Source: an uncultured Coriobacteriaceae bacterium
Lineage (GTDB): Bacteria; Actinomycetota; Coriobacteriia; Coriobacteriales; Eggerthellaceae
DNA: 64,000 nucleotides
NCBI GenBank assembly: GCA_949294735.1
Contig: CASFII010000006.1
Location: 186,001 to 250,000 of the forward strand
Direction of reading: 5' to 3'
A program made the position numbers and the translations under genes. Shown piece after piece: positions 48,188 to 50,625 of this stretch. The notes beneath the pieces were generated by a model, which saw only the letters and a program-made list of their open reading frames with translations, was not told the origin of the DNA and searched no databases. Within the stretch, counting starts at the first letter, position 1. Each line of letters begins with the position of its first letter.

Positions 48188-49075
48188 TTAAGCAGCGGCT
48201 TCTTCTTCGGTATCAGCCTCGTTGTCTGCCGTATCGGCCGTATCAGTGCCGGTAGTTGCACCAGCCGTCAAAGCAACACCCTCAAGGTCGACATGTCCAT
48301 CGAGCCATTTTTGCTCAATGAGAGAAATGACCCCATTCGAAGTGAGCGTTTGGATAGTTGCAGTAACTGTATTTTGCAACTCAGCGTTATCGGTTAACAC
48401 GCCCACACAATAACCACCAGCAGGTTGCAGTAAAGCAACAATGTTTGCTTGAGCACCAGCCTGATCAACTGCATACAAGGCCTTGATTGCGTCAGAGGCC
48501 ATATAGTCAACTGAACCATTCAGAAGCGTGTCTACCGCTTCGGTTAAATCAGTGGTGGACGTAAGCGATTGTTCGCCAAACTCATTCATGACTGCCCACG
48601 CACTCTTAGAAGAAACCTGCGCTACAAAGGTGGAACCTGATTTTGCTTCAGGAACGCCTTTGCTTTCGTCAGTAGCTAGCAGAACCACACCAGTTTGCAG
48701 ATAGATATCTGACTTCCAGAAATTGTCGTTTGACGACTGGTCAATACCCATAACGATATCAACGCTGCCATCATTAAGGGCTGTCTCAGGATCCGCGCCA
48801 ACGTCAACTAACGTAAGCTTTAAACCCAATTCGTCGGCTATTGCAGCAGCAATGTCAACATCAATACCGACAATTTTATTATCAAGCATGCCTGCTAAAG
48901 GAGCGTTGGTGGTGTCAACACCAACACGAAGAACTCCATCTTCCCCAATAGTAGGTGTAGAAACCTGCGGATCCTTAGACTCAGGTTCATAGGTTTGATT
49001 ACCAGAGCAGCCCGCCAAAAGACCTACCGAAGCCAACAACATGCCGCTCAGTATCAAAGCTACTATACGCTTCAT
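48188..49075 (-). CDS. Solute-binding lipoprotein of an amino-acid-type ABC transporter (orphan)
   Basis: The 295-residue protein has a lipoprotein signal ending LLASVGLLAGCSGNQ (lipobox LAGC near residue 23) and a periplasmic-binding-protein type II fold: VLRVGVDTTNAPLAGM near residue 47, GIDVDIAAAIADELGLKL near 70 and VDIVMGIDQSSND near 105. The C-terminus is an acidic Thr/Asp/Glu/Ala tail. The ATG at 49075 follows GGAGGGG. No permease or ATPase gene is nearby, so the partner transporter must be elsewhere. The ligand is not decidable, though amino acids are typical. A leader of about 250 bases precedes it. Confidence 0.9.
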   Translation of the reverse strand: MKRIVALILSGMLLASVGLLAGCSGNQTYEPESKDPQVSTPTIGEDGVLRVGVDTTNAPLAGMLDNKIVGIDVDIAAAIADELGLKLTLVDVGADPETALNDGSVDIVMGIDQSSNDNFWKSDIYLQTGVVLLATDESKGVPEAKSGSTFVAQVSSKSAWAVMNEFGEQSLTSTTDLTEAVDTLLNGSVDYMASDAIKALYAVDQAGAQANIVALLQPAGGYCVGVLTDNAELQNTVTATIQTLTSNGVISLIEQKWLDGHVDLEGVALTAGATTGTDTADTADNEADTEEEAAA

Positions 49076-49337
49076 AGCACCCCTCCATTTGTTCTTCGCT
49101 CCTTTTGGCTGACCTAATCTTTGCCCCCACACTCGCGCACTGGGGTTCAGCTTGCACCTACACCCTCTCGTTCGCGCGACCGTATGCCGCAAACAACGAA
49201 CGGTACGTCTTACTCCTAGGACGCGCCATGCTCGCAGAAACCTGCTTACGTGGATCCTTTTGACCGCGTCTGCCTTGGACTAGGGATGCCTGAGCATTCC
49301 CGCAATTACAGACCCAAAAGAAGCGTTCCTAAGTTTA
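49076..49337 (-). promoter_or_regulatory. Long GC-rich structured leader of the solute-binding lipoprotein gene
   Basis: A stretch of about 250 bases with no supported gene precedes the lipoprotein start. Visible minus-strand hairpins are at 49283-49301 (GGGAATGC with GCATCCC, one bulge), 49234-49245 (GCAG/CTGC) and 49125-49145 (CCCCA/TGGGG). Two mutually exclusive pairings overlap at 49169-49204 (CGTTCG/CGAACG or ACCGT/ACGGT). A TAAACT box at 49332-49337 is a possible -10 promoter element with no good -35. It matches no riboswitch or small RNA that I recognise. Confidence 0.45.
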
Positions 49338-49567
49338 CCAGATTGCGAAAACATCTGCGCATTTTGCTTCAAATCTACGGGCGCAGGTGATGTTTCATTG
49401 TTGGAGACGTGCGAAAGCTTGCTTGTTTTTTGCTAGATTTCTGCACAAGCTTTGAGAGAAACCTGAGATTTTGTAAGAGCTTTCCGTAAACTTAGTGCTT
49501 GAGATACGACAGACACCTGCTCTTCACCTGCTAGCTTCCCGGTTGAGTTTCTTTCTACACTGAAACC
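49338..49567. other. Intergenic region between the lipoprotein leader and comF
   Basis: These 230 bases hold no supported gene. A perfect eight-base inverted repeat, AAAGCTTG (49414-49421) and CAAGCTTT (49446-49453), has a 24-base spacer. A TACACT box (49556-49561) lies just before comF. Nothing else is recognisable. Confidence 0.4.
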
Positions 49568-50263
49568 ATGATAGAAGTGATGCAATTTCTCAAGGAAGCC
49601 ATTGAAGAAACCCTCTGGGCGACTCGTTGCGTCATCTGTGACGAACAAGGAACACTTCTTTGTGAAACATGTACACAGAACCTGTCCTACATTGACCAAA
49701 ACCTTGCCTGTCCGCGCTGCGGCGAGCCCTACGGCATCCAACAATGCTGCAACTGCACACCCTATTCCCCTTCCTTCACAAGCGGTCATAGCGTGGTTTT
49801 ATTAGACGAGCGTGCTCGAGCAATTGTCCGCGCTTACAAAGACCAAGGGGAACAACGCTTGGCCGCCTTTATGGGGCAAAGTATTGCTCAGCTGGTTTCG
49901 CCAGAAGAACGAAAGGCAATTCAGCTTATAACTCACATACCCGCCACAAAAAGTGCCTATCGTCGGAGGGGTTTTGATCATGCGGAGAAAATAGCTCAGG
50001 AGGTAAGTCTTTCCCTTACTATCCCTGCCTATAGCGTCTTTATGCGTCCCAAAAACATAGACCAAAGGAAACTAGGGAGAAAAGGACGCCTCAGTAACAT
50101 GAAAGGACGATTTAAGGTGCTTCCAGGCATCAGCCTACCTCACACCATACTCTTAGTTGATGATGTGTTCACCACAGGCGCAACGCTTTGCGCTGCAACT
50201 GAAACACTAAAGGAAGCAGGGGTAGCTCAGGTTTTTTGCGCTACCTTCGCCAGAACATACTAA
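49568..50263 (+). CDS. comF: ComF-family phosphoribosyltransferase-like protein
   Basis: ComF takes part in DNA uptake during competence in several bacteria, and its partner DprA is also in this window. The 231-residue protein has an N-terminal zinc-binding region with CVICDEQGTLLCETC and CPRCGEPYGIQQCCNC, then a PRTase domain: VRAYKDQGEQRLAAFMG-type segment near residue 89, RRRGFDHAEKIAQ near residue 137 and the PRPP loop ILLVDDVFTTGATL near residue 194. No Shine-Dalgarno is seen and a TACACT box ends seven bases before the ATG, so it may be translated from a leaderless mRNA. Its stop overlaps the convergent NifX-like gene stop. Confidence 0.92.
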   Translation: MIEVMQFLKEAIEETLWATRCVICDEQGTLLCETCTQNLSYIDQNLACPRCGEPYGIQQCCNCTPYSPSFTSGHSVVLLDERARAIVRAYKDQGEQRLAAFMGQSIAQLVSPEERKAIQLITHIPATKSAYRRRGFDHAEKIAQEVSLSLTIPAYSVFMRPKNIDQRKLGRKGRLSNMKGRFKVLPGISLPHTILLVDDVFTTGATLCAATETLKEAGVAQVFCATFARTY

Positions 50264-50625
50264 GCAAATTGCTCTTCCAGCGCATCCGAAGAACCTTGAG
50301 GATGGCACATTTCATCCACCCCGATAAGCGTGCTGGACAAATAAGAATCGACAACTGCCTTTGGACTGCCCTCTACCCCAGAAACAACCTCAATATCTGC
50401 ATAACAAAGCTGTTTTGCGATGTCGGCTTCTACACCATGAGAAATAAATACTTGCACGCCTAAATCATGAAGCAAATCTGCCAATTCAATAGCGTCAACC
50501 TGAGGATTGGGTAAATTCTGGCACCCGATTACAATGCCCTTTGAAACGGTATACACCATGAAACTTTCGCAATAAAGCGCATGGAGGGCAGTTTCTAAGC
50601 CATCACACGCAACTGCAATCTTCAT
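50260..50625 (-). CDS. NifX/NifB-C-type dinitrogenase iron-molybdenum cofactor domain protein
   Basis: The 121-residue protein is a stand-alone domain of the NifX/VnfX/NAFY type. It starts MKIAVACDGLETALHALYCE, then LADLLHDLGVQVFISHGVEA and ends with an acidic tail. In other bacteria such proteins bind iron-molybdenum or iron-sulfur precursors, but no nif genes are here, and many non-fixing anaerobes carry them with unknown role. The ATG at 50625 follows GGAGGATAC. The stop codon overlaps the comF stop tail to tail by two bases. Confidence 0.8.
   Translation of the reverse strand: MKIAVACDGLETALHALYCESFMVYTVSKGIVIGCQNLPNPQVDAIELADLLHDLGVQVFISHGVEADIAKQLCYADIEVVSGVEGSPKAVVDSYLSSTLIGVDEMCHPQGSSDALEEQFA

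Follow-up and report, generated by a model that had tools for sequence, protein, structure and literature searches.

A contig from an uncultured Coriobacteriaceae bacterium carries about 250 nucleotides (nt) of GC-rich, hairpin-forming sequence ahead of a gene for a solute-binding lipoprotein, and the question that this locus raises is whether the structured stretch is a riboswitch for its gene or an RNA with a function of its own. An original prediction, made from the letters of the window (the whole 64,000-nt stretch of this contig that was analyzed), read two mutually exclusive pairings at 49169-49204 as the arrangement of an RNA switch, recognized no known riboswitch, and mentioned a separate small RNA as another possibility. 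The structured RNA ahead of the gene is real, its strand and position had been called correctly, and it is a copy of a known and very widespread bacterial noncoding RNA, raiA/ModT. The explanation that we consider best overall, and probably correct, is that of a housekeeping RNA that stands on its own, with transcription that may continue into the lipoprotein gene.

Identity and fold of the RNA

A search with Rfam cmscan matched the minus strand at 49322-49100 to RF03072 (raiA motif, ModT) with a score of 139 bits, compared to a gathering score of 101.3, and an E-value of 3.1e-34. The match spans the whole model (positions 1-209 of 209), and it is the sole Rfam match up to an E-value of 1 within 48800-49700. 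The structured element has a GC content of 56%, its end lies 25 nt upstream of the ATG at 49075, and the source genome contains one raiA RNA match. The family that had gone unrecognized is therefore a known one, and the separate small RNA mentioned in passing proved close to the truth. The features of the locus are collected in Table 1.

Table 1. Features at the raiA RNA locus, in window coordinates
Feature	Coordinates	Strand	Basis
SBP_bac_3-fold lipoprotein (SBP'), without the usual ligand Arg	48188..49075	minus	Pfam PF00497, 65.4 bits; lipobox in translation
Shine-Dalgarno (SD) sequence GGAGGGG of the lipoprotein gene	49080..49086	minus	sequence
raiA-motif (ModT) noncoding RNA, 223 nt, full length	49100..49322	minus	RF03072 match and covariation in 144 class relatives
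Helix P7 (49169-49173 paired with 49198-49202)	49169..49202	minus	99.9% of cells paired; both-sided changes in all 5 pairs
Pseudoknot pk-1 (49265-49271 with 49219-49225)	49219..49271	minus	alignment; name and architecture as given in PMC11751092
Extended -10 promoter element TGGTAAACT, nine bases before the RNA 5' end	49332..49340	minus	sequence and conservation in relatives
comFC-like gene, divergent from the RNA and 245 nt away	49568..50263	plus	TIGR00201 ComF, 75.5 bits (below curated cut-off); Pribosyltran above cut-off

The raiA motif is described as the ModT RNA of C. difficile, an abundant and trans-acting RNA that affects growth transition and sporulation and for which trans-complementation is reported in both C. 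difficile and C. acetobutylicum (PMC11706538). According to the same source, a comFC gene upstream and/or a raiA/hpf gene nearby is usual, though not obligatory. The three-dimensional structure of raiA RNA has been reported as solved (PMC11751092, PMC12286853). The window RNA resembles the published family in being full length and single copy, in forming the tested helices and pk-1, in having comFC as a neighbor, and in carrying its own promoter. It differs in that comFC is divergent and the hpf (raiA) gene does not adjoin the RNA.

As proposed with the original prediction, the structure was examined by covariation among homologous leaders. The 178 class loci yielded 148 RNAs after near-copies and L160 were dropped, and 144 of these (103 from the window's family and 41 others, with L153, L156, L158 and L159 left out) were aligned by MAFFT without structure. 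A structure of 49 pairs, based on the Rfam match and on the fold as published, was next compared with 500 shuffles. Across the 144 rows, 95.3% of its cells are paired versus 85.5% in shuffles, both-sided changes occur in 35 of the 49 pairs (25.2 in shuffles) and in 806 cells (219 in shuffles), and the covariation score is 0.415 versus 0.218, with no shuffle among the 500 reaching the observed value on any measure. When the partners are slid by 1-3 columns, pairing falls to 28-43%. Helices P1, P3, P6 and P7, named according to our reading of PMC11751092 such that the published numbering may differ, are 95-100% paired in the 144 relatives. Both-sided changes are evident in P1, P3a, P6 and P7, and P3b exhibits one-sided changes only. 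Of the seven pk-1 pairs, six are formed in the window as well as in each of the 144 rows, and the outermost pair is A-C in the window and is formed in 15 of the 144 rows. Thus, covariation shows that the RNA folds into the raiA structure, including the first pseudoknot.

These data also bear on the idea that the stretch is merely chance structure in a GC-rich intergenic region, an explanation that might be entertained when only the folding energy is considered. On the minus strand the minimum free energy is -86.2, versus a shuffled mean of -81.0 (z just -1.08, with 29 of 200 shuffles as good), and on the plus strand z is -1.66 (9 of 200 shuffles as good). The folding-energy signal is weak and was therefore not relied on as evidence for structure. 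Chance structure is nevertheless refuted by the covariation, with its 806 cells of both-sided change, together with the 139-bit covariance-model match, and we assign it essentially no probability.

Both of the mutually exclusive pairings can indeed be drawn, but only the first, which corresponds to P7, is conserved. The second, 49179-49183 with 49200-49204, forms in 53.7% of cells, and its covariation score is equaled or exceeded in 384 of 500 shuffles; this pairing is due to chance or private to the window sequence. Because the second pairing lacks covariation, no switch is supported, and a two-state switch at 49169-49204 was rejected as a candidate. The published trans-complementation in Clostridia likewise argues against a cis switch (PMC11706538). 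A new and unclassified amino-acid riboswitch, which would suit a structured 5' region ahead of an amino-acid-type binding protein, is refuted as 'unclassified' by the full-length match to RF03072, and it is made highly improbable by the unsupported alternative pairing and by a gene product that is devoid of an Arg common to transporter binding proteins (see below).

Promoter and junction with the lipoprotein gene

The window promoter is of the extended -10 type with no clear -35 element, and a sigma-70 scan called neither a promoter nor a terminator on the minus strand at this site. Of 127 family loci, 113 have the pattern TG.TA...T within about 60 nt upstream of the RNA, as do 42 of 50 other loci of the class, in most cases at the same place. 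Moreover, 200 of 237 loci have an extended -10 element no more than 40 nt from the RNA, compared with 17 of 1190 random 40-mers drawn from these loci.

On the other side of the RNA, the distance from its last base to the start codon has a median of 37 nt in the 128 family loci and likewise in 45 others, where start codons were picked by rule, with two negative family values that are certainly wrong; the window distance is 25 nt. No terminator-like site was found on either strand within 48600-50600. Between the RNA and 30 nt past the start codon, such sites occur in 5 of 173 loci, which suggests that the lipoprotein gene is served by the promoter of the RNA. Of the family loci, 53 of 124 have one past the stop codon of the gene, compared with 5 of 45 loci outside the family, where this rarity makes their absence from the junction less telling. 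In the 120 nt past the RNA, which are mostly coding, terminator-like sites were seen in 18 of 128 loci of the family and in 4 of 50 outside it, and in loci without SBP' they appear behind the RNA in 8 of 89 cases, a count that offers no strong control. The ModT RNA of C. difficile is reported to have two 3' ends (PMC11706538), whereas the window RNA has no terminator-like site and is followed 25 nt on by the start codon that its SD serves.

A leader that acts in cis, in which a fold or ligand would set the transcription or translation of the lipoprotein gene and, in deeper families, of the transporter genes behind it, is the leading competitor, and we judge it unlikely though not negligible as a function of raiA RNA in Coriobacteriia, whether alone or added to another. 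The same gene at a short and constant distance, the scarcity of terminator-like sites in between, and the single promoter seen for RNA and gene are all as expected for such a leader, but in relatives clear conservation of the spacer is confined to the SD and the vicinity of the RNA end. In the window alone, predicted SD openness is 0.12 with the RNA and 0.53 without it (the fold ignores pseudoknots), and this predicted occlusion favors a cis effect of some kind in this single sequence; yet the mean of 55 loci, predicted in the same manner, is 0.44 with the RNA and 0.47 without it, and thus average openness is unchanged. Rfam types RF03072 as 'Cis-reg; riboswitch', and raiA is one of five families at whose loci a machine search of RNA-seq data reported riboswitch-mediated transcription termination (PMC12121620), but the alternative helix drawn by the original prediction lacks covariation and the RNA complements in trans in two clostridial species (PMC11706538). 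No conserved ligand-driven expression platform is visible at the junction of RNA and gene, and neither a conserved terminator/antiterminator nor an SD-sequestering fold, the generic marks of a cis riboswitch, was found in relatives.

For the free-standing RNA that we favor, transcription would begin from the extended -10 promoter, whose sequence is conserved, at a start site that is presumably located at the 5' strand of helix P1. The product most likely acts as a free RNA in trans, as described for Clostridia (PMC11706538), and we infer that it accumulates freely in Coriobacteriia as well. Polymerase that passes the RNA end would then run on into the lipoprotein gene, with no terminator-like site between.

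Gene order and losses in Coriobacteriia

Of 396 class genomes, 377 carry raiA RNA, almost always in one copy; in the window's family, 128 of 138 genomes do. Two matches each were seen in G187, G367 and G119, and those of G367 lie on one contig about 55 kb apart. SBP' follows the RNA in 128 of 128 loci of the window's family by tblastn. Outside the family, it follows in 47 of 50 loci, where tblastn with a single sequence gave 45 and a profile added L170 and L173. Since these 50 loci are mostly top scorers, an even sample of 99 class genomes was drawn, of which 97 have the RNA and 93 loci were used (G031, G057, G073 and G077 were left out), and a gene was counted as an SBP' ortholog when it scored at least 150 bits with its own profile. 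The gene follows the RNA in 82 of these 93 loci, comprising 14/14 in the window's family, 27/29 in families f2 and f3, and 41/50 in deeper families. This fixed short spacing to the same gene is also expected of a cis leader. The 11 exceptions are G044 and G056, in which hpf is directly behind the RNA, and nine f13/f14 genomes. The different small gene that stands about 31-35 nt after the RNA in the f14 loci L374 and L387 (the spacing that SBP' has elsewhere) and the hpf that follows the RNA in clostridial and acidimicrobial loci argue against a cis leader.

The genes farther downstream were counted in loci with at least 2.5 kb of sequence in that direction; gene calls by longest open reading frame, which are confused by shadow frames on the opposite strand, were not used for counts. 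The order RNA-SBP'-hpf is found in 37 of 37 f2 and f3 loci. In nine deeper families (f11, f12, f15, f16, f17, f19, f20, f22 and f23), a second SBP is located behind SBP' in 30 of 31 loci, and a second SBP plus a permease in 29 of 31. In 8 of 10 f13/f14 loci SBP' is missing, but a transporter SBP is encoded together with a permease. In one f13 locus, L405, these transporter proteins have matches to the polar amino-acid ABC family: the permease exceeds the cut-off of TIGR01726, and a GlnQ-like ATPase and a LAO/GlnH-like SBP score below curated cut-offs. hpf lies 3.6-4.4 kb downstream of the RNA on the same strand in 14 of 14 deep-family genomes that have both on one contig; in G001 the two reside on different contigs. 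Two f13 genomes that are 93-94% complete, G006 and G008, have no hpf (PF02482) match and have kept raiA RNA.

In the window's family, SBP' stands alone in 85 of 93 loci; no permease match was found in any of the 93, and a weak ATPase match (63-71 bits) appears further down in 7. The four scanned neighbor genes at the window locus include no permease and no transporter ATPase, and hpf is 89 kb from the RNA in this genome. The description of the gene as an orphan thus holds for the genome at hand, but not for its history, given the transporter operon of deeper families. By tblastn, comFC is matched at 103 of the 128 family loci and at 49 of the 50 others, some loci being cut short upstream, and it is divergent in 88 of the 128.

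Across a wider set, SBP' scores above 100 bits in at least 26 of the 119 named loci listed, all of them titled as Coriobacteriia-type or 'uncultured actinobacterium'; the 119 come from one pattern scan, with a pattern that does not match the window itself. Clostridial and acidimicrobial loci have comFC and/or hpf, or neither, according to class profiles that may miss distant copies. L181, titled as a Slackia heliotrinireducens MAG, has the order comFC-RNA-hpf without SBP' and low comFC and hpf scores, and it may be a misbinned contig of another group. L331 (from G390) gave no protein match in the scan. Coriobacteriia therefore share with the comFC-raiA RNA-hpf locus of Clostridia and other Actinomycetota the comFC-RNA core, hpf behind SBP' in f2 and f3, and hpf behind the transporter in deep families; they differ in having a binding protein, and in deep families a transporter, between RNA and hpf.

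Gene order in these outgroups suggests that comFC-RNA-hpf is ancestral. In Coriobacteriia, a module of SBP', SBP, permease and ATPase would have come to sit between RNA and hpf; f2 and f3 would have lost the transporter and kept SBP' and hpf; and the window's family would have lost both transporter and hpf from the locus, often with comFC turned round. From this comparison of loci, the window lipoprotein gene appears to be all that is left here of a former amino-acid transporter operon.

RNA and gene can also be lost from one another. G056 and G044, each 99% complete, keep a raiA RNA of 164-166 bits and have no SBP' ortholog anywhere in the genome. The RNA is therefore worth keeping without the gene, which again is not expected of a leader that acts only in cis. 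Homologous genes without a conserved leader had been named as grounds for refutation, and this was tested in part: the gene was sought in the 25 class genomes that have no RNA match, and four have an SBP' ortholog. Two of these are at a contig edge (one with the 3' end of the RNA visible), one has N upstream, and the fourth is in G398, where the RNA is absent. G366 (L341) was not counted as a gene without RNA, as its sequence contains N there. G398 is a 76%-complete MAG of the window's family whose locus (L343, G398:C97) has comFC, the extended -10 element and SBP', with the gene 130 nt behind the promoter element and about 130 nt without a raiA match in place of the RNA. No raiA match was found elsewhere in this genome with strict filters. 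G398 is a possible natural loss of raiA RNA; as a single draft genome, it hints that the promoter can serve SBP' in the absence of the RNA.

The companion lipoprotein

SBP' has the fold of amino-acid binding proteins, with an AlphaFold2 model of mean pLDDT 86 whose best Foldseek matches are of this type. It resembles GlnH-, ArtJ- and AncQR-like SBP_bac_3 proteins in fold and overall sequence, its best solved relatives are amino-acid binding proteins, and 157 of 170 SBP' sequences retain the Asp found at residue 195 of the window protein. In a tree made by a quick method with a midpoint root, in which a few paralogs are the same gene entered twice, SBP' sequences occupy one side of a single branch (SH-aLRT 99), and the 46 transporter SBPs and 35 genome paralogs fall outside this group.

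The conserved Arg of polar amino-acid SBPs holds the carboxylate of the amino acid. SBP' differs from these proteins in mostly lacking this hinge-loop residue, in forming its own clade, and in having no transporter in the window's lineage. The window protein has no Arg at the aligned site, and among SBP' sequences the residue is present in 1 of 224 by multiple alignment or 7 of 224 by pairwise alignment. The corresponding counts are 35 or 41 of 46 for transporter SBPs and 34 or 31 of 35 for genome paralogs. The remaining transporter SBPs are gaps; the 11 gapped in the multiple alignment are misaligned, not truncated, and 5 of 46 are unaligned pairwise. Because SBP' is nearly always without this Arg, transport of ordinary amino acids by the protein appears unlikely. 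An Arg elsewhere in the hinge loop, often adjoining a conserved Ser before Tyr, is found in 33 of 170 SBP' sequences and might substitute for the missing one. A role as a sensor or scaffold is a guess.

It is conceivable, though we would not expect it, that the Coriobacteriia raiA RNA and Arg-less SBP' function as a pair and derive from a single transcript. In that case the RNA would serve as a housekeeping RNA and at the same time as the leader of a module related to starvation that comprises comFC, amino-acid uptake and ribosome hibernation, with SBP' serving as a sensor or partner and not as part of a transporter. Such pairing would explain why SBP' is behind the RNA in every family locus while transporter and hpf have left.

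The window RNA is a well-supported further copy of raiA/ModT. A review states that the motif often precedes raiA genes or genes for periplasmic-binding proteins of unknown specificity (PMC11477304), and thus the neighborhood seen here is already in print and not new in kind. Among the hits listed from the open-licence literature, we found no description of the class-wide pairing of RNA and SBP', and the class-wide operon series and Arg-less companion clade were likewise not found described in the literature searched. RaiA/ModT is a highly conserved bacterial noncoding RNA, and a near-universal single-copy RNA that is tied by position to one gene clade across a class, with losses both ways, offers a clean comparative system in which to ask whether the RNA works without its companion and whether the lipoprotein needs the RNA. 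The companion, which looks like an orphan in the window, stems from an amino-acid transporter operon that ends in hpf, and this origin fits the published role of raiA RNA in the transition to stationary phase.

Upstream of its ATG, the lipoprotein reading frame stays open across the 3' part of the RNA (48188-49192, minus strand), and automatic gene callers could set the start of the protein inside the raiA RNA, at the TTG at 49192. Elsewhere in the window, the minus strand at 32890-32922 matches the L31-Coriobacteria ribosomal protein leader (RF03128) with 46.9 bits, above the gathering score.
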